In this document: positions 47,355 through 58,982 of the stretch, piece after piece
How positions within the stretch are numbered: the stretch's first letter is position 1
How the letters are laid out: each line of letters begins with the position of its first letter
DNA from: an uncultured Eudoraea sp.
Lineage (GTDB): Bacteria; Bacteroidota; Bacteroidia; Flavobacteriales; Flavobacteriaceae
Reading direction: 5' to 3'
Assembly (NCBI GenBank): GCA_947258405.1
Contig: CAMYIE010000002.1
Location: 124,001 to 188,000 of the forward strand
DNA length: 64,000 nucleotides
Program-made: the position numbers and the translations under genes
Notes under the pieces: generated by a model
What the model was told of the DNA's origin: nothing
What the model saw: only the letters and a program-made list of their open reading frames with translations
The model's database searches: none

Positions 47355-48119
47355 ATGAAAATCGTATCGTGGAATGTTAATGGGATCAGAGCGATAGTAA
47401 AGAAAGACTTTTTTAAATCCATCGGGGCAATCCCGTGGGATATCTTATGTTTACAGGAAACCAAGGCCCAGGACCACGAAACCGCTGAAGCTTTACAAAC
47501 TGGTGGAGACTTCCATACCTACCACAACGCCGCTGCGAAAAAAGGATATAGCAGTACGGCGGTTTTGAGTCTGTCCGAACCCAAAGGAATTACAATGGAT
47601 ATGGGCGTTGCCGAGCACGACAGCGAAGGCAGGATCATCTGTCTGGATTATGATAGTTTCTATCTGGTAAATGTTTATGTTCCCAATTCAGGTCAGAAAC
47701 TCGTCCGCCTCGATTATCGCAAGCAATGGGATGCCGATTTCCTAAAATATCTCAAAGAGAAAGAAAAAACCAAACCGGTGATTGTCTGCGGCGACTTCAA
47801 TGTGGCACATCGCCCTATCGACTTGAAAAATGACAAATCGAATTACAATAAGACCGCCGGATATACTCAGGTGGAAATCGATGGCATGGACAATTTTATA
47901 AACGCCGGATTTGTAGACACCTATAGATTTTTTCATCCTGAGGAAATCGCATATTCATATTGGAGCTACCGTTTTAAAGCACGAGAGCGCAATGTAGGCT
48001 GGCGTATCGATTATTTCCTGGTTAGCGAGTCGCTGACACCTAAAATAAAAGCTGCCGAAATATTACCCCAGTACCACGGTTCGGATCACTGTCCGATCTT
48101 ACTTGATATAGACATATAA
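47355..48119 (+). CDS. xth: Exodeoxyribonuclease III
   Basis: A 254-residue endonuclease/exonuclease/phosphatase-fold enzyme for base-excision repair at AP sites. Motifs seen are MKIVSWNVNGIRA, CLQETKAQ (metal Glu), YVPNSGQ, CGDFNVAH and GSDHCPI (catalytic His). I chose ATG 47355 since the longer frame from 47274 starts beside the tRNA gene. It stands alone on the plus strand. Confidence 0.93.
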   Translation: MKIVSWNVNGIRAIVKKDFFKSIGAIPWDILCLQETKAQDHETAEALQTGGDFHTYHNAAAKKGYSSTAVLSLSEPKGITMDMGVAEHDSEGRIICLDYDSFYLVNVYVPNSGQKLVRLDYRKQWDADFLKYLKEKEKTKPVIVCGDFNVAHRPIDLKNDKSNYNKTAGYTQVEIDGMDNFINAGFVDTYRFFHPEEIAYSYWSYRFKARERNVGWRIDYFLVSESLTPKIKAAEILPQYHGSDHCPILLDIDI

Positions 48120-48210
48120 TTTCTCGAGAGCTGAATGAAAATACTCATTTCCCTGAAGTGGTTCCGTGTCTAGTCTTTGATTTATCCAATTATTTTTTAT
48201 TACGTCTAAC

Positions 48211-48222
48211 TGATCCTGATCA
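48211..48222 (+). promoter_or_regulatory. Predicted CRP/FNR-type operator upstream of hsp20
   Basis: TGATCCTGATCA: half-sites TGAT and ATCA separated by 4 bases, the pattern of FNR-family sites (TTGAT-N4-ATCAA). Its centre (48216.5) is 29.5 bases before the first base of the -7 element at 48246, which would put it near -41.5. Confidence 0.65.
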
Positions 48223-48245
48223 TTTCATCGGCTGATGACGATTAT

Positions 48246-48253
48246 TAGTTTTG
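48246..48253 (+). promoter_or_regulatory. Candidate -7 promoter element for hsp20
   Basis: TAGTTTTG fully matches TAnnTTTG, 36 bases before the hsp20 ATG. Confidence 0.6.
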
Positions 48254-48289
48254 CTATCCACTGAATGTTTAACCTAAAAGTAATAGAAA

Positions 48290-48760
48290 ATGTCACTAGT
48301 AAAATTTAAAAAGAAGAACCGGCCGTTCGCCAATCTGGTGACCTCGGATTTCTTTGACATGGAAGATTTCTTTGATAACCGTTTCTGGAACCGCGGAATG
48401 TTTGATGATGATTTCTGGAATGGACGAAAAGGCGAACCCGCTTTGAATATCAAGGAAACAGAAGACCACTTCGAAATCGAATTAGCAGCACCTGGTTTTG
48501 AGAAAAAAGATTTCGAAGTTACCATCGAAAATGGATATTTAAATATTTCTGCAGAAAAATCGATGAAAGAAGAGGAAAAAGAAGAGGAATACACCAGAAG
48601 AGAATTTAGCTACAAGTCCTTTGAACGCTCGTTGCTTCTTCCTGAAAATGTAATTCAGGAGGATATTAAGGCTCGCTATAAAGAAGGTATTCTGAGTTTT
48701 AACCTTATCAAAAAAGAGGTAGCGAAAAAACAATTGCCAAAAAAAGTTGAGATCAGTTAA
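48290..48760 (+). CDS. Hsp20/alpha-crystallin small heat-shock protein
   Basis: A 156-residue ATP-independent chaperone. The N-terminal about 45 residues are rich in Phe, Asp and Arg (DMEDFFDNRFWNRGMFDDDF), followed by the alpha-crystallin domain (PALNIKETEDHFEIELAAPGF through YKEGILSFNLIKKE). The C-terminal tail ends KKVEIS. Its promoter carries a predicted FNR-type site at the position expected for class II activation, so it may respond to oxygen or energy stress in addition to heat. Followed by a terminator. Confidence 0.93.
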   Translation: MSLVKFKKKNRPFANLVTSDFFDMEDFFDNRFWNRGMFDDDFWNGRKGEPALNIKETEDHFEIELAAPGFEKKDFEVTIENGYLNISAEKSMKEEEKEEEYTRREFSYKSFERSLLLPENVIQEDIKARYKEGILSFNLIKKEVAKKQLPKKVEIS

Positions 48761-48847
48761 GATCTCGGCATAGGCTTTTGATACCTTTCTGTCTTCTCCA
48801 ATTAGTCGTCCATGTAGTAAAATTGTCGGCAGAGGGTATTCGATGGA

Positions 48848-48876
48848 ACGGCACCTTAAGGTGCCGTTTTGTTTTT
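48848..48876 (+). terminator. Rho-independent terminator of hsp20
   Basis: Perfect 8-bp stem ACGGCACC / GGTGCCGT, loop TTAA, then TTTGTTTTT. It lies 87 bases after the hsp20 stop. Confidence 0.85.
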
Positions 48877-48896
48877 ATACATGTTAAACCTCTATA

Positions 48897-49664
48897 CTAT
48901 TTTGAAATACGTTCCAGGAATTGCCCCATTTTCTGTTTGGCGCTTTGGTAGCCCAGTTCGAAGACCACTTCTGTATCTTTTAAGGAAAAAGTGCCAAATT
49001 TGCGTAAACCTTCTGGGGTAATCAGCAGATCACAATCTTCAAATTTATCGGTCGATGTACTTGCCGCCCTGATCTGGTAAGCACGTTCCAGTACCTGGTA
49101 TGAATGCTTCATATCCTCAATCTGGATCTTGAGAAAGGGGTTGACATAAACCCCGATGATATTTTCACATTCAGCCCTTAACAGATCAACCGGGAAGTTA
49201 TTGAGTGTGCCACCGTCTATGTAGTAATTACTGTCAATTTTCACCGGTGTAAAAACTCCCGGAAAAGCCGCTGAAGCCAAAATTGGCCTGATGATCGGGC
49301 CTGAAGAAAAAACTTTTAAAGCCCCTTTAAGAACATCTGTAGCCGTTATGAACATTGGGAGCTTTAGCGTTCCGAAATTGTCTTCAGGAAATAACCGTTT
49401 AAAGTCTTTATAGAACTTTTCAGTGTCTACAAAACCCGGTTTGTTCACCGCATATTTGTAAATACTGAAAAGATTAACTCCTTTTACAAATTCCAGGATT
49501 TCCTGATGGGTATACCCGGCAGCATAGAGTGCTCCGATAATAGCTCCGGAACTGGTGCCTGCAACATGGGTGGCCTGAATTCCCGCCTCTTCCATGGCTT
49601 TGATCACTCCGATATGAGCGATTCCCCTAAAACCCCCTCCGGAAAGTACCAGCCCTGTAGTCAT
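48897..49664 (-). CDS. Patatin-like phospholipase
   Basis: A 255-residue patatin-family acyl hydrolase. The oxyanion glycine motif is SGGGFRGIAHIG at about residues 8-19, the nucleophile is Ser38 in GTSSG, and the dyad Asp is in YYIDGGTLNNFPVD. No signal peptide is present, so it acts in the cytoplasm on lipids or acyl esters. I see no FNR-type site in its upstream region. Confidence 0.9.
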   Translation of the reverse strand: MTTGLVLSGGGFRGIAHIGVIKAMEEAGIQATHVAGTSSGAIIGALYAAGYTHQEILEFVKGVNLFSIYKYAVNKPGFVDTEKFYKDFKRLFPEDNFGTLKLPMFITATDVLKGALKVFSSGPIIRPILASAAFPGVFTPVKIDSNYYIDGGTLNNFPVDLLRAECENIIGVYVNPFLKIQIEDMKHSYQVLERAYQIRAASTSTDKFEDCDLLITPEGLRKFGTFSLKDTEVVFELGYQSAKQKMGQFLERISK

Positions 49665-49759
49665 TGGCCCGATTTGATCAGATTAGGTATGAAAATAAAC
49701 AAATTCTCAATGAACCGAGACGTTTAATGGCATTCATACCTCTACCATGGTGAATCTCC

Positions 49760-49969
49760 TTACTTTCGCTTAAAGAGTTTCCCTAGCAGCAATGAAATCA
49801 CCACTCCCTGGAAGGTGCTTTCAAGACTTCGCACGAGGTTCCTTGGTATCATGAGGTGTTTGATAGTGCTGCATTCAAGTTTCACATATTCTTTATCGAT
49901 CTGCCGGCGTAACTCCAGAATTTTGAGCTGTGCATCTATTTCCTCAAAGGAATTGTATTGCTTCTTCAT
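49760..49969 (-). CDS. DUF6327-like small protein
   Basis: A 69-residue protein starting MKKQYNSFEEIDAQLKILELRRQI (first helix, key residues SFEEID and LKILELRR), a form I associate with DUF6327 of flavobacteria. The C-terminus has a hydrophobic patch (VVISLLLGKLFKRK). ATG 49969 is preferred over the longer frame, which overlaps the holin-like gene. It lies 5 bases after that gene, third in a triad with it and the YtxH gene. Confidence 0.75.
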   Translation of the reverse strand: MKKQYNSFEEIDAQLKILELRRQIDKEYVKLECSTIKHLMIPRNLVRSLESTFQGVVISLLLGKLFKRK

Positions 49970-49974
49970 GGTTT

Positions 49975-50316
49975 TCAAAAGAATTTCTTGGAAAAAAAGC
50001 GCAAGATCACCTTGTTGATACTGCGCCGCATGGCAAAGACTATAAGTCCTACGACCAGATAAAATGCTCCCACGAGCAGGAATCCCCATTTATATCCTCC
50101 TAAATAGTCGCCGACGGTCATGGCGACCCCTATACTCACAAGGAATAAAAAAAGGAGTCCTATACTCGACAGGAGAAAAAACAAAATAAGGGATGTGACC
50201 AGGACCATGGAAATCTTAAAGCCCCTTAACTCAACGTATTCAAGGCTATCATCGACATAGTCGGTCACTCTTTTATCCAATTCGGATAAATGATGCTTCA
50301 TTTCTTCAAAGGCCAT
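49975..50316 (-). CDS. Holin-superfamily III-like (Phage_holin_3_6) membrane protein
   Basis: A 113-residue protein with an amphipathic N-terminal segment and two strong transmembrane helices (about residues 35-65 and 75-97), ending in a basic tail (RRSINKVILRFFSKKFF). It fits the Phage_holin_3_6 (Actinobacterial holin-like) family, which in non-phage settings is not a lysis protein. No phage genes are nearby. It sits 6 bases after the YtxH gene. Confidence 0.82.
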   Translation of the reverse strand: MAFEEMKHHLSELDKRVTDYVDDSLEYVELRGFKISMVLVTSLILFFLLSSIGLLFLFLVSIGVAMTVGDYLGGYKWGFLLVGAFYLVVGLIVFAMRRSINKVILRFFSKKFF

Positions 50317-50322
50317 CAGCGA

Positions 50323-50652
50323 TTATTTCTGAAGTTCGGCATTCTTCTTTTTAAGCTCTTCAAGCTTTCTTTCCAAAGTGGCGATAATATCATCTGCCTT
50401 ATAGCTCATATTGGAAATAGTGTCTTCGAGCTTTTGCTCAAAAGCTACCTTTTTCTCTTCGGCCGACTTGGTCAGTTCTTCTTTTGCATGCGAGATGCGA
50501 TCACTTAAGTCGTGCGATACATCAGAAGCTTTTTCTTTGATCTTCCTTCGTGTCTTTTTACCTTCATCAGGTGCATAGAGAATACCTATCCCGGCTCCAA
50601 TAGCCGCTCCTGTTAACAACGCCAATAATACACTTCCTGAATTGTCTGACAT
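50323..50652 (-). CDS. YtxH domain protein
   Basis: A 109-residue protein. The N-terminus holds a glycine/alanine-rich membrane segment (LLALLTGAAIGAGIGILYAP) followed by the YtxH signature DEGKKTRRKIKEKASD and a long charged coiled coil to the end. YtxH proteins are general-stress induced in Bacillus; their function is unknown. It is the first gene of the YtxH-holin-DUF6327 operon, and its promoter region carries a predicted FNR-type site. Confidence 0.88.
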   Translation of the reverse strand: MSDNSGSVLLALLTGAAIGAGIGILYAPDEGKKTRRKIKEKASDVSHDLSDRISHAKEELTKSAEEKKVAFEQKLEDTISNMSYKADDIIATLERKLEELKKKNAELQK

Positions 50653-50685
50653 GATACTAGATTTTAGTTATTATTAATATTTTAA

Positions 50686-50693
50686 GCAAGGTA
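50686..50693 (-). promoter_or_regulatory. Candidate -7 promoter element for the ytxH operon
   Basis: TACCTTGC on the minus strand, a partial match to TAnnTTTG (four of six fixed bases), found at the same distance from the operator as in the other promoters of this region. Confidence 0.35.
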
Positions 50694-50716
50694 AGAATTA
50701 ATACCAAGCGTCAAAA

Positions 50717-50728
50717 TGATTATGGTCA
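50717..50728 (-). promoter_or_regulatory. Predicted CRP/FNR-type operator upstream of the ytxH operon
   Basis: Plus strand TGATTATGGTCA (TGAT-N4-GTCA). The centre (50722.5) is 29.5 bases upstream of the first base of the -7 candidate (50693) in the direction of ytxH transcription. Confidence 0.55.
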
Positions 50729-50812
50729 ACTCCAGTTAAGAATTCGAAGTATTTTATTTCCATGTGAAGGAATATACCGAAAGAAGCTCGCCTGGCTTAA
50801 GCCTTTTTCATA

Positions 50813-52003
50813 TCAGCTATTCCGAATGGTAAGGTAGGCCTGTCGTGCAATTTCAATTTCCTCATCGGTGGGTACTACAAGGATTTTAACCGGCATATCT
50901 CCTGTATCTATAGACCGGATTTCACTGGAATCCGCATTATTCTTTTCAGAACTAAGCTCTATCCCCAAAAACTCCAGATCCTTACATATCAAGGATCTCA
51001 ATGCCCTTGAATTCTCTCCAATCCCTGCGGTAAATATCAGGATATCAAGCCCGTTCATTGCTGCCGCATAGGCTCCAATATATTTCTTTATTCGATAGGC
51101 ATTCATTTCAAGGGCCATCTGACACTTCAGATCGCCTTGCTGAGCTGCTGCCTCAATCTCGCGTAAATCTGAAAACCCGGTTAAGCCCAGCATACCACTT
51201 TCCTTGTCGAGAAGAGCCTGAATATCATTCAATTCGTAACCGAGTTCCCTGTGCAGATAAAAAATAATGGCATGGTCTATGTCTCCACTCCGAGTTCCCA
51301 TGATCAGACCGTTTGAAGGTGCAAAACCTAAACTGTGATCGATACTTTTCCCATTTTTTACAGCGGTAATACTGCAACCATTCCCAAGATGCATACTGAT
51401 TATTTTATCGGCTGGCGACCCTGCGAATTCCATCGCTTTTTTTGAAACATAGCTATGACTCGTACCGTGGAAACCATAGGCCCGGATCCCACGATCCTCA
51501 TAAAGTGTTTCGGGTATGGCATATTTATGGGATGTTTTGGGCATGGTTTGATGGAACGCCGTATCGAAAACAGCCATCTGCCGACTATCAGGGATGAGTT
51601 TTTCGGCCAGTTCAATACCCAGCAGGTTGTGAGGATTATGCAGCGGTGCCATCGGGATATACTTCCGGATTTGCTTTTTTACTGACTCATCGACTATAAC
51701 CGTACCTGAAAATTCACTTCCTCCATGGACCACCCTGTGGCCTACCACCTCTATGTCCCCAATATCATGTCCCGACTTAGTCTCTGAGTCGAGCAGTGTC
51801 CTTACTATACGCTCTAAACCCGCTTCGTGAGAGGGAATCGGCAGCTGTTCGTAAAATTTGTTCTGGCCATAAGAATAGGTTAAGGTAGCATCTTCAGTCC
51901 CGATCCTGTCTGCCACACCACGGCAAATCACTTCTTCCTCAGGCATTTTTACCAGCTGAAACTTGATGGAGGAACTGCCGGAATTGATGACTAGTATATT
52001 CAT
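50813..52003 (-). CDS. ackA: Acetate kinase
   Basis: A 396-residue acetate kinase making ATP from acetyl phosphate. It starts MNILVINSGSSSIKFQL, has VVHGGSEFSGT, FDTAFHQTMP, YGFHGTSHSYV and HLGNGCSITAVKNGKS, all conserved in AckA. It lies 47 bases downstream of pta. Together they form the substrate-level phosphorylation route from acetyl-CoA, important when respiration is limited. Confidence 0.96.
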   Translation of the reverse strand: MNILVINSGSSSIKFQLVKMPEEEVICRGVADRIGTEDATLTYSYGQNKFYEQLPIPSHEAGLERIVRTLLDSETKSGHDIGDIEVVGHRVVHGGSEFSGTVIVDESVKKQIRKYIPMAPLHNPHNLLGIELAEKLIPDSRQMAVFDTAFHQTMPKTSHKYAIPETLYEDRGIRAYGFHGTSHSYVSKKAMEFAGSPADKIISMHLGNGCSITAVKNGKSIDHSLGFAPSNGLIMGTRSGDIDHAIIFYLHRELGYELNDIQALLDKESGMLGLTGFSDLREIEAAAQQGDLKCQMALEMNAYRIKKYIGAYAAAMNGLDILIFTAGIGENSRALRSLICKDLEFLGIELSSEKNNADSSEIRSIDTGDMPVKILVVPTDEEIEIARQAYLTIRNS

Positions 52004-52050
52004 ATGAATGCATAAATTTCAGGATATAGGTCTGCTTAGACCCCGGGGGT

Positions 52051-54147
52051 TCAATGCATACCCTGTGCCTGTATGGCTGTAATTACTACTGTATTGAAAA
52101 TATCGTCTACGGTACTTCCACGACTCAGGTCGTTTACGGGTTTGTTAAGTCCCTGGATTATCGGTCCGATGGCCAGCGCACCGGTTTCCCGCTGGACAGC
52201 CTTATAGGTATTATTGCCTGTATTCAGATCGGGGAAAATAAATACACTCGCCTGGCCCGCCACTGTAGATTCGGGCATTTTTTTCTTTGCAACTTCCATA
52301 TCTACCGCGGCGTCATATTGAATAGGTCCCTCTACCTTAAGCGACGGATTTTTATGCTTGACAATCGCAGTAGCCTCCCTTACTTTCTCCACATCCTGAC
52401 CTTTCCCAGAAGTTCCCGAAGAATAAGACAACATGGCAATCTTTGGCTCTATACCAAACGATTCGCTGGTATTGGCCGAGGTAATCGCAATTTCCGCAAG
52501 CTCTTCAGCATTCGGATTAGGATTAATGGCACAATCGCCATAGACCGTTACCCGATCTTCAAGACACATAAAGAATACAGAAGATACGATCGATACATCT
52601 GGTTTAGTTTTTATAAACTGAAGTGCAGGCCGTATGGTATGCTGAGTGGTATGAACCGCGCCGGAGACCATGCCATCTGCATGGCCTTTATAGACCATCA
52701 TGGTACCGAAATACGAAATATCGATCATCTGGTCACGGGCCATTGTAGGGTTTACGTTTTTGTGCTTTCGAAGCTCGTAGAGCGTCTCAGCATAATCATC
52801 GAAATATTCAGAATGCTGCGGATCTATTATATCGATCTTATCCAGATCCAGATCCAGATCTAACTGATCGATCATCGCTGCTATCACCAAAGGATCTCCC
52901 AGGAGAATTATCTCGACAACATCACTATCGATAAGCTCCTTAACTGCTCGGAGTATCCTGGCATCGGTTCCTTCAGGTAGTACAATCTTCTTTTTTTCGC
53001 TCCTGGCCCGCTGCATCAAATTAAACTGAAACATCCGGGGCGTAATCCCGTTGCCCTCAAAAGTGATCAGTTTTTCGGCTAATGCATTGACCGGAATAAA
53101 GGTTTCAAAATCCTGAATCGAAGTGTTGATTTTTCGCGTATTCCCGGCGTAGATCTGAGGTTTGATGGCATCGACCTTGTTGGCCGTCACATAGGTGCCA
53201 TCCTTTACTGAAACAATAGGTACAATTTCCGAAAGACCTTCAATGAGTTTTAAGATAGAATCTTCAGGGCGCAAACCGCCGGTAAGCACTATACCTGAAG
53301 CCGTTGGGTAATTGGCCGATAGATTGGCTTGAAGTGCTCCGAGAATAATATCGGCCCTATCGCCGGGGGTAATCACGAGGCTGCTTTCCCTAAAATGGGT
53401 GAGATAGTTGCGCAATTGCATTGCACCAACACTGATATTGCTCAATTGATTGTTTAGGTATGCCGAGCCAAAAAGCACTTCAGCATCCAGGCCATCTGCA
53501 ATTTCTTTCATTGTCGGGTTACCAAGGATCGGATTTCGTGGAATGGCTCCTACCAAGACTTTTTTTGGCAAGACACTCATTAACCTTTCAATGACAAATG
53601 ATAAGTTCTTCGGGCGTACTTTATTAGCAATGACCATAAGAACCTCCACACCCTTGTCTTTAAATGAATCGTAGGCCAGCAACTGATCATTCACAAATTC
53701 CTCCATCGTCTTCCCTTTGCCACTGGTCAATATGATTGTAGGAATACCCAGGTTCTTTGCCATCAGTACATTGATATCCCACTCAATGATCCCACCTTCT
53801 CCGGTAAAATCTGTTCCTTCTACCAGTACGAAATCAAAGCGGTCTTCTATTGCCTTATATCCGGCAATGATCTTGTCTAGTACTTCATCCTCCTTATCCT
53901 GGTTCAATTTATGGATCACCTCATTTCTGGTACAGGCGAAAGCCTCCTGATATGCGATATTCAGCCCAAAAAAACTGATCATAGTTTGAATATGGTTATC
54001 CATTTCACCAGACTTATAATCATCGATTATCGGTCTGAAATAACCCACTTTTGCAGCCTTACCGAGAAGAAGATGCATAAGGCCAAGTGAAACAATAGAT
54101 TTGCCGCTATTAGGCGCTGTGGTAGCGATATAAACCGCCTTGCTCAT
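52051..54147 (-). CDS. pta: Phosphate acetyltransferase, long form
   Basis: A 698-residue Pta of the long type. The N-terminal P-loop domain (YIATTAPNSGKSIVSLGLM) resembles dethiobiotin synthetase/CobB, a DRTGG domain lies in the middle (about 215-330), and the catalytic PTA_PTB domain fills the C-terminal half (MFQFNLMQRARSEKKKIVLPEG onward, MLSYSSGTSGKG, ending with VNDLSRG). A short Asp-Leu tract (LDLDLDLDK) is encoded by a hexanucleotide repeat. ATG 54147 is preferred. It is probably cotranscribed with the universal stress genes upstream (123-base gap) and ackA. Confidence 0.95.
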   Translation of the reverse strand: MSKAVYIATTAPNSGKSIVSLGLMHLLLGKAAKVGYFRPIIDDYKSGEMDNHIQTMISFFGLNIAYQEAFACTRNEVIHKLNQDKEDEVLDKIIAGYKAIEDRFDFVLVEGTDFTGEGGIIEWDINVLMAKNLGIPTIILTSGKGKTMEEFVNDQLLAYDSFKDKGVEVLMVIANKVRPKNLSFVIERLMSVLPKKVLVGAIPRNPILGNPTMKEIADGLDAEVLFGSAYLNNQLSNISVGAMQLRNYLTHFRESSLVITPGDRADIILGALQANLSANYPTASGIVLTGGLRPEDSILKLIEGLSEIVPIVSVKDGTYVTANKVDAIKPQIYAGNTRKINTSIQDFETFIPVNALAEKLITFEGNGITPRMFQFNLMQRARSEKKKIVLPEGTDARILRAVKELIDSDVVEIILLGDPLVIAAMIDQLDLDLDLDKIDIIDPQHSEYFDDYAETLYELRKHKNVNPTMARDQMIDISYFGTMMVYKGHADGMVSGAVHTTQHTIRPALQFIKTKPDVSIVSSVFFMCLEDRVTVYGDCAINPNPNAEELAEIAITSANTSESFGIEPKIAMLSYSSGTSGKGQDVEKVREATAIVKHKNPSLKVEGPIQYDAAVDMEVAKKKMPESTVAGQASVFIFPDLNTGNNTYKAVQRETGALAIGPIIQGLNKPVNDLSRGSTVDDIFNTVVITAIQAQGMH

Positions 54148-54270
54148 AAGAGGTTGTATTTTGAAGTGCAAATTTATGACATCTGAATCCGAAATACTCC
54201 TTTCAGGGCTAATAATGTTCCTTTCGAGAAATAAAAATTAGAATAAAATACTCCCAGATTGTTAAAATCT

Positions 54271-55122
54271 TCAACTGTTGTTCGCCTCGGGGAGAACCAG
54301 AAATGGAATATGAGTTTTAAAGGCAACTTTTTTTATTACCGGCTCGCGCAGTAGTCGTCTGAAAAATCCATGTTGACTATTGATCATGACCAGCAAGTCA
54401 GATTTGTTTTCATCGGCCCATTCATTGATTCTATATGCTATCATCGGATGATATTCGATAATTTCGAAGCTATGGGATACCCCTTTCAAGAGCCTGGCCA
54501 GAAGTTTTTTTATCTCTTCATTTTCCTTTGTTAAAGCAGCTTCTCCAGGCATATGGATTACCCTGATGGTGGAGTTCCATATATTTGCCAGACTGATCAT
54601 CGGTTCCAGTTCGACCTTCTGGTAAAGGTGTTTGTAATCTGTTGCAAATACGATCTGCGAAGGTTTGGTGAAATCAAAAGAGCCTGGGATAGCGAGTAGG
54701 GGACAAAAATTGATACTCTTCAGCACACTTACTGTATTGCTTCCCATAAAAATCTCTTTCATCCCACTGGCACCCTGGGTACCCATACAGATAAAATCAA
54801 TATCCTTATCAATAATATTCCGCCCAATAGTATTGAGCAGGGAATCGGATTCCAAAATAGCTTCAAAAGAATGATCGGTTACTTTATTGATGCTTTTCAA
54901 ATGCCCCACTATCTTTTGAAGCTTAACCTCCACCTCATCCTGGGTGATTTGGTGAAATCGTGTGTCCCTTTCCTTATTGATAGTGCTTACCAGGCCAGAT
55001 GGAGCCGGTTGATGCGCATGGAGTATATAAAAGGAACAGGGTATATTCTCAAAAAGATAGATCGCATACTGAATGGCATGCCATGCATTCTCGGAAAAAT
55101 CTGTGGGCAGTAAAACACGCAT
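54271..55122 (-). CDS. Tandem-domain universal stress protein (copy 1)
   Basis: A 283-residue UspA-type protein with two domains. The N-terminal one begins MRVLLPTDFSENAWHAIQYAI and has the nucleotide-binding motif G-x2-G-x9-G-S (GTQGASGMKEIFMGSN). The second domain (from about residue 150) lacks this motif and ends with RLLREPVIKKVAFKTHIPFLVLP. It is the third of three consecutive Usp genes and lies 24 bases behind copy 2. Universal stress proteins support survival in energy-limited cells. Confidence 0.92.
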   Translation of the reverse strand: MRVLLPTDFSENAWHAIQYAIYLFENIPCSFYILHAHQPAPSGLVSTINKERDTRFHQITQDEVEVKLQKIVGHLKSINKVTDHSFEAILESDSLLNTIGRNIIDKDIDFICMGTQGASGMKEIFMGSNTVSVLKSINFCPLLAIPGSFDFTKPSQIVFATDYKHLYQKVELEPMISLANIWNSTIRVIHMPGEAALTKENEEIKKLLARLLKGVSHSFEIIEYHPMIAYRINEWADENKSDLLVMINSQHGFFRRLLREPVIKKVAFKTHIPFLVLPEANNS

Positions 55123-55146
55123 CGTATACTCTTTTTTGATTAAAAT

Positions 55147-55998
55147 TCAACAGTCTTTTTGCGGCAAGACCAGTAAAGGAACATCGGTGTGATGTGCCAT
55201 TTTCTTAACTACCGGTTCGCGGACAAGGCGTTCCAGAAATGTATGGGCATAGTGGATCAATACGATCAGATCTGCTTTTTCTTCTTTCACGGCAGCACCG
55301 ATGGATGCGTTTACGCTTTGTTTCATTTCCACAGTCTTGAAATGTATATCTACCTCTTCGAAAGCTTCTTTGAGCCTTTGCTTGTTCTTTTCCTGATCGA
55401 CTCCCGGAACGGCTTCCTGGGTCACCTGCACCATGGTTAGCCTGCTTTTCCATGCCAGCGCCAACTCATGTAATATACTAACCTGACATTCTCGGATTCT
55501 TTGGGTAAGATCTGTAGGAAACACTATTCGGTCGAGGTCTTTAAGATCCTGTGCTTCCGGTACGGCCAGAATCGGGCAATTCCTGATCTTTTTAATCACC
55601 TTTATGGTATTGCTTCCAATAAACACATCACTCGCGCCTGTAGCCCCTTTTTGACCCATGACAATAAGATCGATGTCGTCTTCTATGAGCATTTGGGATA
55701 AGGTATCCACCAGATTGCCCTTTAAGGATCTAGTCTCGAACTTGTGTCCTTTCACCCGATGATGTTTCTTCAGATATGAATCCATTTCCCCAAGTTGCCT
55801 GGTGGAGTCGGCAGAGAGAGATTCGTAGATTATCGCAAGCCTTTCCTTGCTTCTGTTGCCCAAAATACCGCCAAAAGCCGGTTCGTAACAATGGACGATA
55901 TAAAACAAGACGTCGAAATTTTCATAAAGCTTAAGCGCAGTGAACAGCGCATTCCATGCACTTTTTGAAAAATCTGTGAGGATTGCTACTTTTTTCAT
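55147..55998 (-). CDS. Tandem-domain universal stress protein (copy 2)
   Basis: A 283-residue protein of the same build as its neighbours. The N-terminal domain starts MKKVAILTDFSKSAWNALFTAL and carries the ATP-type motif GQKGATGASDVFIGSN; the C-terminal domain lacks it and ends ERLVREPVVKKMAHHTDVPLLVLPQ. Equal length and order show that the three genes arose by tandem duplication, but the sequences have diverged. It lies 43 bases behind copy 3. Confidence 0.92.
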   Translation of the reverse strand: MKKVAILTDFSKSAWNALFTALKLYENFDVLFYIVHCYEPAFGGILGNRSKERLAIIYESLSADSTRQLGEMDSYLKKHHRVKGHKFETRSLKGNLVDTLSQMLIEDDIDLIVMGQKGATGASDVFIGSNTIKVIKKIRNCPILAVPEAQDLKDLDRIVFPTDLTQRIRECQVSILHELALAWKSRLTMVQVTQEAVPGVDQEKNKQRLKEAFEEVDIHFKTVEMKQSVNASIGAAVKEEKADLIVLIHYAHTFLERLVREPVVKKMAHHTDVPLLVLPQKDC

Positions 55999-56041
55999 AA
56001 TAAACCCTTATTTATTAAAATGCTATACTACCCAAGAAGAT

Positions 56042-56896
56042 CTATTTATCGATCGGTGAGGTATCACGGATTACCAGGAAGGGTACCTGAACATGGAATC
56101 CGATCTGGTCTACATTCTGGCGCCACATTATTCGTTCTAAAAAATTGTGCTGCCGATTCATCATCACCAAAAGGTCTAATTGATGATCATCGATATAGTC
56201 CATAACCGCCTGTGGCATCAGGGCACCCCTGAGCTCTTGAAAACGATGAGGAAACTCTTTCAACATTGCCTTGAGATGGTTTTTATTTTCCAGTTGCTTA
56301 TCTGTCAGCTCATATTCCTCTTTTACATGTAAAATGGTAATTTCAGCATTATTTGTAGTGGCCATATCCAATAGCGTACTAATCTCACTTGCCTTATATT
56401 TCGACCAGTAATCGGATGGAAAAAGTATTCTGTTTACCTGCTTATATTTAAACGAAGCCGGTACGGCCAGGACTGGGATATTCGCCTTTCGGATCACATA
56501 TACAGTGTTGGTTCCCAGAAATATCTCCTTGGCACCCGAAGCCCCCTGAGTACCCATCACTACCATGTCTATTTCTTTTTCGGTAGCAATCTTGTTGATT
56601 TCGTCTGTTAAAAGATTAAAGGCCGATACTAACTTAAATTGATGTCTTGGATTTGTATGGCCTTGCAAAATATTGGCTTTTGTCTTTTCCAGGCCTTCCA
56701 TGGAAATATCGACCCCTATATCGGGGATAGCGCTGAATGATGGGCCTCCAATAAGGTAATCCATCCTATAAAAAGCCGGGGTATAGGTATGGAGGATATA
56801 AAAGAGACAGTCGCGCTTCGCGAAGAATTTAATGGCATAACCTATTGCATTGTTAGCATTGGTCGAAAAATCCGTAGGCAGCAATATTTTCAACAT
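56042..56896 (-). CDS. Tandem-domain universal stress protein (copy 3)
   Basis: A 284-residue protein; ATG 56896 gives the family start MLKILLPTDFSTNANNAIGYAI, while the longer frame from 57010 would run across the promoter. The ATP-type motif is GTQGASGAKEIFLGTN in the first domain; the second domain is degenerate in this respect and ends ERIMWRQNVDQIGFHVQVPFLVI. It is the first gene of the probable usp-usp-usp-pta-ackA operon, with an FNR-type site and a perfect -7 element upstream. Confidence 0.92.
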   Translation of the reverse strand: MLKILLPTDFSTNANNAIGYAIKFFAKRDCLFYILHTYTPAFYRMDYLIGGPSFSAIPDIGVDISMEGLEKTKANILQGHTNPRHQFKLVSAFNLLTDEINKIATEKEIDMVVMGTQGASGAKEIFLGTNTVYVIRKANIPVLAVPASFKYKQVNRILFPSDYWSKYKASEISTLLDMATTNNAEITILHVKEEYELTDKQLENKNHLKAMLKEFPHRFQELRGALMPQAVMDYIDDHQLDLLVMMNRQHNFLERIMWRQNVDQIGFHVQVPFLVIRDTSPIDK

Positions 56897-56917
56897 GATC
56901 CTCTGTTTTACATTCAT

Positions 56918-56925
56918 CAAAATTA
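56918..56925 (-). promoter_or_regulatory. Candidate -7 promoter element for the usp-pta-ackA operon
   Basis: TAATTTTG on the minus strand, a full match to TAnnTTTG, 21 bases before the ATG of Usp copy 3. Confidence 0.6.
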
Positions 56926-56948
56926 AACGACAAACCGGGTGCAAACCA

Positions 56949-56960
56949 TGACCTGGATCA
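56949..56960 (-). promoter_or_regulatory. Predicted CRP/FNR-type operator of the usp-pta-ackA operon
   Basis: Plus strand TGACCTGGATCA (TGAC-N4-ATCA), close to the FixK/FNR 'anaerobox' form TTGAYCTGGATCAA. The centre (56954.5) is 29.5 bases upstream of the first base of the -7 element at 56925. Confidence 0.65.
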
Positions 56961-57019
56961 GTTGGCCTGCCCCCTGCTTTCAAACTACCACGAATATCAT
57001 CGAAAAGCAAAGGCTGATA

Positions 57020-57031
57020 TGATCGCCGTCA
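57020..57031 (+). promoter_or_regulatory. Predicted CRP/FNR-type operator upstream of the DUF2267 gene
   Basis: TGATCGCCGTCA (TGAT-N4-GTCA), followed 29.5 bases from its centre by CATCTTTA (57055-57062), a weak -7 candidate, and then the DUF2267 ATG at 57084. It is separate from the operator at 56949, so each arm of this divergent region has its own site. Confidence 0.5.
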
Positions 57032-57083
57032 TTTGGTAAACGGTCATTTAATTTCATCTTTAGTAATCATAAAAAAACAGATT

Positions 57084-57536
57084 ATGGCACTGAATTTTAA
57101 TCAATACGCAACGGAAGGCAATACGTTTTTGAAACATTATGCCAAGGAAATGAACCTGGCCGATAACCGCGACAAGGCCGGAAGGATATTTAGTTCTATT
57201 CTCCACGCACTTCGCGACATTATCAGTCCGGAAGAATCACTACAATTTATCGCACAGCTGCCTATGTTCCTGAAAGCAGTTTATGTAAATGGCTGGAGCC
57301 TGAAAAGGGATAAGCCCAGGATCAAAAAAATGGCAGAATTTATAGATCTGGTACGCAAGCATGATGGGCCGGCTGCAATAAACGATTTTGAATACAGCGA
57401 TGAGGTGGCCGAACAGTATATCGACACCACTTTTATCTATCTGCGCAAATACATCTCGCTGGGAGAAATGGAAGACATAAGGGATGGTCTGCCCAAAGAT
57501 TTGAAGAGCATGATCTACTCTAATCTTATGTTCTAA
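57084..57536 (+). CDS. DUF2267 family protein
   Basis: A 150-residue soluble, mostly helical protein. The start MALNFNQYATEGNTFLKHYAKEMNL (key residues ATEGNTFL) and the middle RIFSSILHALRDIISPEESLQFIAQLPMFLKAVYVNGW (about 34-71; key residues VLHALRD-like and AQLP) fit DUF2267. ATG 57084 is preferred over an upstream start that would lie in the promoter. Genes of this family often neighbour Usp, Hsp20 and other low-oxygen stress genes. Its biochemical role is unknown. Confidence 0.88.
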   Translation: MALNFNQYATEGNTFLKHYAKEMNLADNRDKAGRIFSSILHALRDIISPEESLQFIAQLPMFLKAVYVNGWSLKRDKPRIKKMAEFIDLVRKHDGPAAINDFEYSDEVAEQYIDTTFIYLRKYISLGEMEDIRDGLPKDLKSMIYSNLMF

Positions 57537-57568
57537 AGAGGTCCGGGATCTTATTCAATCGGCAAGCG

Positions 57569-57592
57569 ATAATATGATGGTTATCATATTAT
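57569..57592 (+). promoter_or_regulatory. Extended inverted repeat containing an FNR-type operator, upstream of the WG-repeat gene
   Basis: A perfect 10-bp inverted repeat with 4-base spacer GGTT. Its core (57575-57586) reads TGATGGTTATCA, an exact TGAT-N4-ATCA site. The centre (57580.5) is 29.5 bases before TACTTTAG (57610-57617), which matches TAnnTTTG at five of six fixed bases. It also lies 33 bases after the DUF2267 stop, but no T-tract follows, so a terminator is less likely. Confidence 0.6.
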
Positions 57593-57647
57593 AATTTGCT
57601 ATTTAAGAATACTTTAGCTCATTAGTAATCCCAAAAAACATAGTACC

Positions 57648-58280
57648 ATGAGAAGTTATTTCTTCATTATTGCCTTTTTGTTTTCATCGATAGTTGGTTT
57701 GGGTCAGGAGATCGATTCGGTAGACGAGATCGCCCCGTTCCATGAAGGGCTGGCCGCCGTTAGAATTGGAGATCAATGGGGCTTTATCAATGCCGATGGA
57801 GATTTGGTCATAGACTTTCGCAGTGACCTGGTTTGGAATGAAGAGGTAAGTACCGGTGTCGAAGATATAACGGGTATTGCTTATCCAAGATTTAAAGACG
57901 ATCGATGTATGATCAAAGAAACCCTGGAAGAGGAGGGTATCGATGTATATGGATTCATCAATAGCAAAGGCGAAACTGTAATTAAACCCGAGTATCTTAA
58001 CGTTACGGAGTTTAACGAGGGATTTGCGCTGGGAATTTTACTAACCAAAACCTTTAGGGGTCAGAATCGATTTCAGCTTAATATCTATGATTTTAAATTC
58101 AGCGAAGTGATATTGGATCCTGCCGGGGATATTATGCTACTTATTACCCAGCGTCAAAGTATCTTAATGGACAAAAGACGGTATGAACTTCCCAGTCTCA
58201 ATGCGAAATACCTGTCTAAAACCCTGATGGCGGTTAAAACAGACAAGAATACCTGGGAGTTGCGCAAAATTAACCTCTAA
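57648..58280 (+). CDS. Secreted WG-repeat protein
   Basis: A 210-residue exported protein (signal peptide about 1-20, ending VGLGQ). It contains WG (KWG) repeats: FHEGLAAVRIGDQWGFINADGDLVI and a second one, VYGFINSKGETVIKPEY (about residues 98-114), typical of WG_beta_rep proteins, which form small beta-structures of unclear function, often at the cell surface. It is first in an operon with an FMN-binding lipoprotein (12-base gap) and a GNAT protein. Confidence 0.87.
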   Translation: MRSYFFIIAFLFSSIVGLGQEIDSVDEIAPFHEGLAAVRIGDQWGFINADGDLVIDFRSDLVWNEEVSTGVEDITGIAYPRFKDDRCMIKETLEEEGIDVYGFINSKGETVIKPEYLNVTEFNEGFALGILLTKTFRGQNRFQLNIYDFKFSEVILDPAGDIMLLITQRQSILMDKRRYELPSLNAKYLSKTLMAVKTDKNTWELRKINL

Positions 58281-58292
58281 CAGCTCATTACC

Positions 58293-58982
58293 ATGACACA
58301 TCTGAGAAAAGGGGAGAAAATAGCCTTCCTCGTATTGATTTGTACACTATTCTGGTATTGCCGGGAAAAGCCGGCTGCGGAAAAAGAAATTTTAAAGGAA
58401 ACCATAGTTGAGATTACCAATCCAAAAGTGATTGTTGATCTATGCGCCAGTGCCGGCGTCTCTATTACCGATACTACCGATATAGACCCATTTCTGCGTT
58501 TTAAGATGATCGACAACTCGGGTGTTATTCAGGATATAAATATCGATGAGGCAGCGCGATTATTCAAACGTTCAAAATCGGGAAAGAAGGTTTCGGAAAT
58601 ACCACTGATGGAGTTCAAAGAAGCAGACAAAACCCTTATGATGTTCAACAGCAGGGGTTATGGAGGGCCTATCTGGGTCACCCTTATTTTGAACAATAAT
58701 AATTCACAATTTGAGAATGTACAGTTCGAACACCTCGCCGAATCGGAGGGATATGCAGCGGGTTTTACCATGAGTTCCTTTGAAGATCAGTTTACAGGTG
58801 TTGAAATTAAAGCTGGAGATACCAATTTTGGTATTGAGCAGGGCGATAAACTTGTCTTAAAAGGTTCATACACAGTAGATGGGATAAGCGGTGCCACCCA
58901 GACCAGCATGGCGGGGATTGAGATGATGAACATGGGAATCAGCAGGGTCAAGAACTATGCATTCCCTAAAAAGGTTAAATAA
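58293..58982 (+). CDS. FMN-binding-domain lipoprotein (NqrC/RnfG-like)
   Basis: A 229-residue protein with an N-terminal hydrophobic segment ending in Cys (about residues 9-23, FWYC), so an exported lipoprotein or signal-anchored protein. The domain is FMN_bind: RGYGGPIWVTLILN and the covalent flavinylation site VDGISGATQTS with the acceptor Thr202. In NqrC/RnfG this Thr carries FMN attached by ApbE and takes part in electron transfer. No nqr, rnf or apbE gene is in this window, so it is an orphan copy. Confidence 0.85.
   Translation: MTHLRKGEKIAFLVLICTLFWYCREKPAAEKEILKETIVEITNPKVIVDLCASAGVSITDTTDIDPFLRFKMIDNSGVIQDINIDEAARLFKRSKSGKKVSEIPLMEFKEADKTLMMFNSRGYGGPIWVTLILNNNNSQFENVQFEHLAESEGYAAGFTMSSFEDQFTGVEIKAGDTNFGIEQGDKLVLKGSYTVDGISGATQTSMAGIEMMNMGISRVKNYAFPKKVK

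Follow-up and report, generated by a model that had tools for sequence, protein, structure and literature searches.

A CRP/FNR-type element heads a usp gene run upstream of pta-ackA in Eudoraea: a candidate link between universal stress proteins and oxygen-limited metabolism

Pseudomonas depends on universal stress protein (Usp) genes under the regulator Anr when it survives by pyruvate fermentation or under anaerobic energy stress, according to a review (PMC8509486), which bears out what a preliminary description of the present DNA had said of these proteins. In the lxa locus of Burkholderia, which is upregulated under low oxygen, six Usp are grouped in one region with a heat-shock protein and metabolic genes, according to three papers (PMC6127331, PMC9104464, PMC3759415). 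Because these two systems precede it, the kind of locus described here is already known. It lies in a stretch of 64,000 nucleotides (the window) from an uncultured Eudoraea sp. of the Flavobacteriaceae. Here three usp genes, headed by a palindrome of the CRP/FNR type, are followed by pta and ackA. The best explanation, which we hold with about as much doubt as confidence, would be a nested unit in a stress neighbourhood under a CRP/FNR-type regulator: a usp operon with possible read-through into pta-ackA, which would have a basal promoter.

The likeness to the Anr-dependent genes of Pseudomonas aeruginosa (UspK PA3309, UspN PA4352, UspL, UspM and UspO) is that Usp stand under a CRP/FNR-type regulator there and would do so here. 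However, Anr dependence and phenotypes were measured there, whereas the present locus is known from sequence alone. With lxa it shares the clustering of Usp with heat-shock and metabolic genes, as the three usp, hsp20 and pta-ackA all lie inside 9 kb of the window. This is a resemblance of content, not of descent. Burkholderia belongs to another phylum and low-oxygen induction of the present locus is a prediction. Neither "acetate kinase" nor "phosphate acetyltransferase" occurs in the available text of PMC6127331. The genes and promoters at the centre of the analysis are the following.

usp3, 56042..56896, minus strand: two Usp domains, heads the run (Pfam PF00582, ATP-site motif)
usp2, 55147..55998, minus strand: two Usp domains (Pfam PF00582, ATP-site motif)
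usp1, 54271..55122, minus strand: two Usp domains (Pfam PF00582, ATP-site motif)
pta, 52051..54147, minus strand: long form with AAA_26, DRTGG and PTA_PTB (Pfam)
ackA, 50813..52003, minus strand: acetate kinase (Pfam PF00871; best solved match 2iir, an acetate kinase, E 4e-125)
usp3 promoter, 56918..56960, minus strand: palindrome TGATCCAGGTCA (56960..56949), 23 bases, -7 box TAATTTTG (56925..56918); exact match to TGAN6TCA-N23-TAnnTTTG
inner pta promoter, predicted, 54169..54176, minus strand: -7 box TAAATTTG, with a weak -33 element in the window

The five-gene run, its coordinates and its gaps of 43, 24, 123 and 47 bases agree with the preliminary description. Each Usp has two stretches matched by PF00582. 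The ATP-site motif G-x2-G-x9-G[ST] occurs once per protein and in the N-terminal domain only (3/3), as in Usp of the ATP-binding type; usp1 also matched two solved Usp structures, weakly by sequence. Pta is of the long form and ackA encodes an acetate kinase, with family domains above the curated cut-offs; activity and direction of the pair are predicted. The genome has one second PTA_PTB match, in a 779-aa frame that we take to be probably a malic-enzyme fusion. It also encodes an AMP-forming acetyl-CoA synthetase, which would leave pta-ackA free for the acetate-forming direction, though it is no proof of that direction.

Promoters of the sigmaA type in Flavobacterium psychrophilum have a -7 box TAnnTTTG at -12 to -5 and a median 5' untranslated region of 24 bases (PMC9723704). 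The present promoters resemble them in the TAnnTTTG box and in short leaders: measured from predicted starts, the 43 element targets of this genome described below have a median leader of 29 bases. If the -7 box of usp3 is likewise placed at -12 to -5, the centre of the palindrome falls about 41.5 bases 5' of the inferred transcription start. This is near -41.5, which we take to be the position of class II sites of CRP/FNR activators. Palindrome, 23-base spacing and -7 box were kept in all five loci covering this region. A scan for sigma-70 promoters was rejected as useless (20 sites, against 23.8 in shuffled sequence), because flavobacteria use another promoter.

The preliminary description regarded the promoter before usp3 as the only clear one and the five genes as one probable operon. 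The usp3 promoter is indeed present, but the first statement was wrong. The usp1-pta gap holds a second -7 box, TAAATTTG (54176..54169), 29-30 bases 5' of the pta ATG and exact like that of usp3. We aligned the upstream DNA of the window with that of its sister species (L105) and of five Eudoraea-like loci (L025-L029). In all seven loci TAAATTTGCA before pta is unchanged; the rest of the gap has mostly diverged. Shuffled upstream sequences of 110 bases contain a box of the TAnnTTTG type in about 7% of cases, and none was found in the aligned upstream regions of usp2, usp1 and ackA. Thus pta-ackA seems to keep a predicted basal promoter of its own. As a universal feature of pta the inner box was rejected: TAnnTTTG lies within 130 bases in 53 of 98 rows, a count in which the window appears twice and a few start codons were mis-set by the script (e. 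g. in L035, L038, L048, L067 and L069).

As to terminators, the preliminary description was correct in seeing none between the genes. None of 18 terminator-like sites in 48000-58000 lies in the four gaps, a search of the entire usp1-pta gap for a stem followed by a U-run gave nothing in any of the seven loci, and the stretch 54171-54280, most of this gap, folds no better than shuffled sequence (z 1.07). The preliminary description had named a terminator together with an independent promoter in the 123-base gap as evidence against its proposal; the conserved -7 box of the sigmaA type was found, the terminator was not.

These results bear on the possibility of a single polycistronic operon in which the usp3 promoter alone drives transcription and pta and ackA have no promoter of their own. 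The genes are on the same strand with short gaps and no terminator found between them, and both the sister species and the Eudoraea-like loci share this order. However, an internal promoter is predicted from the exact -7 box present in 7/7 loci, and relatives that have pta-ackA but no upstream usp must start pta elsewhere. We consider a single operon of this strict kind very improbable, and the term one probable operon was overstated. Within the nested unit that we prefer, transcription may read through from usp1 into pta-ackA.

The conservation of the gene order was studied in 97 Pta rows, namely the window, 80 named loci (the best 80 of 585 confirmed) and 16 further genomes. The latter come from 18 other genomes with an acetate-kinase match, from which G004 and G039 were omitted; the contig of G010 (L109) breaks off 281 bases upstream of pta. 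Usp of relatives were found with a profile built from the three Usp of the window, so that remote Usp may have escaped detection; for some loci, moreover, the stretch of DNA fetched was short. A co-directional usp directly upstream of pta was found in 7/97 rows: the order usp-pta-ackA recurs, more than by chance, in the sister species and the five Eudoraea-like loci (two of them cut at the contig end). The seven loci fall in one supported set of eight rows together with Eudoraea chungangensis (L030), in which two other genes sit between a usp and pta. In eight rows usp is divergent, in one it follows ackA in the opposite direction, in four it is further off, and two rows cannot be judged. In the fetched DNA of the remaining 75 rows no usp was detected beside pta, and among the 16 other acetate-kinase genomes usp was found in the region of the sister species only, with one region cut just before pta. 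A general usp-pta link in Flavobacteriaceae is thus rejected; the co-occurrence in relatives that the preliminary description had called for holds for one clade. Three of the Pta rows, on Saprospiraceae-type and Marinicella-labelled contigs (L055, L064 and L076), have a Pta that falls inside the flavobacterial Pta tree in a quick tree, pointing to gene transfer or mislabelled bins.

Where usp and pta are divergent, the element faces usp with at most one mismatch in the shared DNA of 8/8 loci; in Saonia (L041) exact elements face both directions and pta has a nearer -7 box too. The exact element faces pta within 400 bases in 7/97 rows, none of them with the window's gene order, and is found before 17/830 control genes. 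With one mismatch allowed the counts are 14/97 and 44/830, with 0 for the reversed control; start codons of control genes and of pta were set by slightly different rules. Since the rows are related by kinship, p-values and the comparison of pta with control genes serve as a guide. In the 250 bases upstream, counted in loci of other genomes with the window and the sister species excluded, an element with no more than one mismatch stands before usp in 18/28 cases, ytxH in 10/16, hsp20 in 6/9, the patatin-like gene in 3/12, pta in 10/95 and other long frames in 38/833. An element before ackA was rejected (0/95).

Are usp and pta-ackA mere neighbours, the pair being independent under its own promoter and the upstream usp run having no effect? 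The inner -7 box in 7/7 loci, the absence of usp beside pta in most rows, the eight divergent loci and the failure to find a paired element upstream of pta in the clade all fit such an arrangement. Set against this, no terminator was found in any of the seven gaps, the clade keeps the order although the gap sequence has diverged, the element faces usp in every divergent locus, and an exact element does face pta in some rows. On balance we regard mere neighbourhood as rather unlikely. Two points nevertheless weigh against the nested unit here: co-directional usp before pta is confined to 7/97 rows, which speaks against it as a general link, and a search of the seven loci that share the window's order gave no element paired with a -7 box before pta, the palindrome at -151 in L027 and L029 being unpaired.

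The element is not confined to the locus. Allowing one mismatch, the pattern TGAN6TCA-N23-TAnnTTTG has 78 sites in the genome compared with 15 for the backward pattern, which indicates that part of the 78 are due to chance. The form TGAY-N4-RTCA is present in 48 of the 78 sites; long frames contain 4 of this group, compared with 14 of the remaining 30. Among the 48 well-formed sites, 43 have a T right after TCA, which the pattern did not require. Five well-formed sites were discarded for want of a suitable frame downstream, so that 43 targets remained. Pfam was run on 41 of them (the usp target L124:1501-2340 and L172:812-1318 lay outside the scan), and nine of the 41 gave no family at 0.001.

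The redox and respiratory targets include a HemN-like radical-SAM protein, two POR/KOR proteins (PFOR-like and KorA-like), a CcoI-like copper ATPase and FixS. Another target is a nos-linked cytochrome c, whose gene run is described below. Further targets are ribonucleotide reductase, a PPDK domain, an SdhA-like flavoprotein, AlaDH/PNT, thioredoxin, Rrf2, MlaE, Hsp20 and four usp. The labels HemN, KorA, PFOR, CcoI and SdhA are our reading of Pfam matches. The four usp are the usp3 run of the window and three other usp genes; four among 43 targets corresponds to p ~7e-5, with 16 usp counted and a rough 2,900 genes. The named element targets appear to be largely respiratory or oxygen-limited in kind. 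As the element of usp also precedes PFOR-like, KorA-like, HemN-like and cbb3-maturation genes, Usp would be tied to oxygen-limited metabolism. The coupling of Usp to the acetate-forming ATP pathway, as first proposed, stays plausible; the gene order on which it was built is not general.

The cytochrome c target lies in L149:889-8101 (contig C3), where cytochrome c, fasciclin, the nitrous-oxide-reductase propeller and NosL form one run with the element at cytochrome c. An Rrf2 gene faces this cytochrome c and also has the element. As read from the frames, ackA of L108 is adjoined by an Rrf2-like gene and by a cytochrome-like gene that similar genes follow.

In the strict form TGAYN4RTCAT-N22-TAnnTTTG, the element has 185 sites (the sum of the per-genome table) in 30 of 40 genomes, our own included, and occurs in 23 of the 25 genomes of its own family; the backward control was found in 0/40. 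Five matches to the cNMP domain are encoded in the Eudoraea genome. The best candidate regulator is an FNR-like gene (L148:7234-7929, contig C3, minus strand), adjoined by usp on one side and by cbb3 genes (copper ATPase, FixS and a fused COX1/FixO) on the other. The best solved relatives of its protein are 9qlt and 5cvr/5e44, with chains named FNR type regulator (E 5e-26, nearly the whole chain aligned), which we take to be from Aliivibrio fischeri. The alignment covers the CRP/FNR fold and an FNR-type recognition helix, with E and R, presumably its key residues, in 27/27 rows. C7, C10 and C109 fall on FNR cysteines. Unlike in the solved FNR, the third N-terminal cysteine is an Asn, and cysteine 56 is kept instead; each of the cysteines 7, 10, 56 and 109 is conserved in 26 of the 27 rows, with our own counted. 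The four-cysteine set is possibly a re-arranged Fe-S site. In the open-access literature we found among the top-ranked matches no flavobacterial CRP/FNR regulon, no usp-pta operon and no such cysteine variant.

The strict element was present in 27/27 genomes with a close FNR-like homologue compared with 3/13 others. The threshold for a close homologue (E 1.6e-40 or better) was chosen once the table was known, and 8 of the 10 element-free genomes come from other families, so that kinship confounds this association.

Several observations weigh against an oxygen-sensing FNR as the regulator. Several targets belong to no known family or show no obvious connection with oxygen. With the third N-terminal cysteine missing, the protein does not show the arrangement C-x2-C-x5-C ... 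C, and it scores 115 bits for NCBIfam Fnr (NF008365), whose cut-off is 228. A second CRP-type candidate, a fusion of a receiver and a CRP domain, is encoded in the same genome. For one Flavobacteriales CRP/FNR homologue, carbon sensing has been predicted (PMC8510549).

At L147:8939-16835 (contig C7), a PAS histidine kinase is followed by the receiver-CRP fusion and by five usp in a row, two of which have the element.

The element may therefore be real while the signal is another one, with the kinase-controlled fusion or a carbon- or redox-sensing CRP in place of FNR. The core TGA-N6-TCA is common to CRP and FNR sites, and the fusion gene lies between a PAS kinase gene and another usp cluster, immediately upstream of the latter. 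Moreover, the genomes G008 and G023 have 9 and 4 strict sites without a close FNR-like homologue, and both have CRP-like matches in frames of 350-352 aa. The largely respiratory or oxygen-limited character of the named targets and the conservation of the four cysteines of the FNR-like protein argue the other way. We consider a different signal or regulator somewhat unlikely; the usp3 element may be bound by either the FNR-like or the receiver-CRP protein.

For the nested unit under a CRP/FNR-type regulator, the following course of events can be imagined. When oxygen is short, the regulator would activate the usp3 promoter, usp3-usp2-usp1 would be transcribed and the three Usp proteins made. 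Transcripts reading through the gap would raise Pta and AckA above the basal amount that the inner promoter provides. Acetyl-CoA could come from PFOR-like enzymes, encoded under the same element elsewhere in the genome, and from it Pta-AckA would yield ATP by substrate-level phosphorylation. A broader interpretation is more tentative. It holds that the element marks a family-wide low-oxygen regulon of Flavobacteriia under an FNR variant (C7, C10, C56 and C109) with a fixed 23-base spacing on TAnnTTTG. In such a regulon, pta-ackA might have been joined by lineage-specific routes: by read-through from an element-driven usp operon upstream, through intergenic DNA common to it and a divergent, element-driven usp, or through a separate element facing pta.

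Further genes and promoter elements surround the run in the window.

ytxH-like gene, 50323..50652, minus strand: YtxH domain (Pfam PF12732)
ytxH promoter, 50686..50728, minus strand: palindrome TGACCATAATCA, degenerate -7 box TACCTTGC, two mismatches in the window
hsp20, 48290..48760, plus strand: Pfam PF00011
hsp20 promoter, 48211..48253, plus strand: palindrome TGATCCTGATCA, 23 bases, TAGTTTTG; exact match
DUF2267 gene, 57084..57536, plus strand: divergent from usp3 (Pfam PF10025)
DUF2267 palindrome, 57020..57062, plus strand: TGATCGCCGTCA facing the divergent gene, -7-like CATCTTTA, two mismatches
promoter of the WG-repeat gene (57648..), 57575..57617, plus strand: palindrome TGATGGTTATCA, 23 bases, TACTTTAG; one mismatch

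The ytxH palindrome was kept in 7/7 loci, with a spacing to the best -7-like box of 23 in six and of 22 in L105; the box has one or two mismatches in all seven. As the SM5 motif TAnnTTGY of F. psychrophilum (PMC9723704) this box fits in the window, but not at that place in the six relatives, and nothing was built on the fit. The palindrome facing DUF2267, a second copy in the region between usp3 and DUF2267, was kept in 5/5 loci. The hsp20 element is also found in L105, L026, L029 and L030 with 0-1 mismatches. Eight further lines of the window scan are weak or elsewhere: two are the ytxH and DUF2267 palindromes on the opposite strand, and six lie off these promoters, among them site 21357 with a single mismatch inside a long frame.

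Between the convergent patatin-like and hsp20 genes (window 48760-48897) there is a strong inverted repeat, AACGGCACC...GGTGCCGTT, possibly a shared terminator. At 57648-58982 lies the WG-repeat gene with the element, and after it comes a gene for an FMN_bind protein; a WG-repeat gene resembling this one adjoins pta in L030.

If the interpretation outlined here is true, one palindrome at one spacing would predict the low-oxygen gene set of many flavobacteria. Usp and the acetate-forming ATP pathway, whose link has its Pseudomonas counterpart in the Anr-controlled survival by pyruvate fermentation, would then meet under similar control in a second phylum, with a wiring that depends on the lineage.

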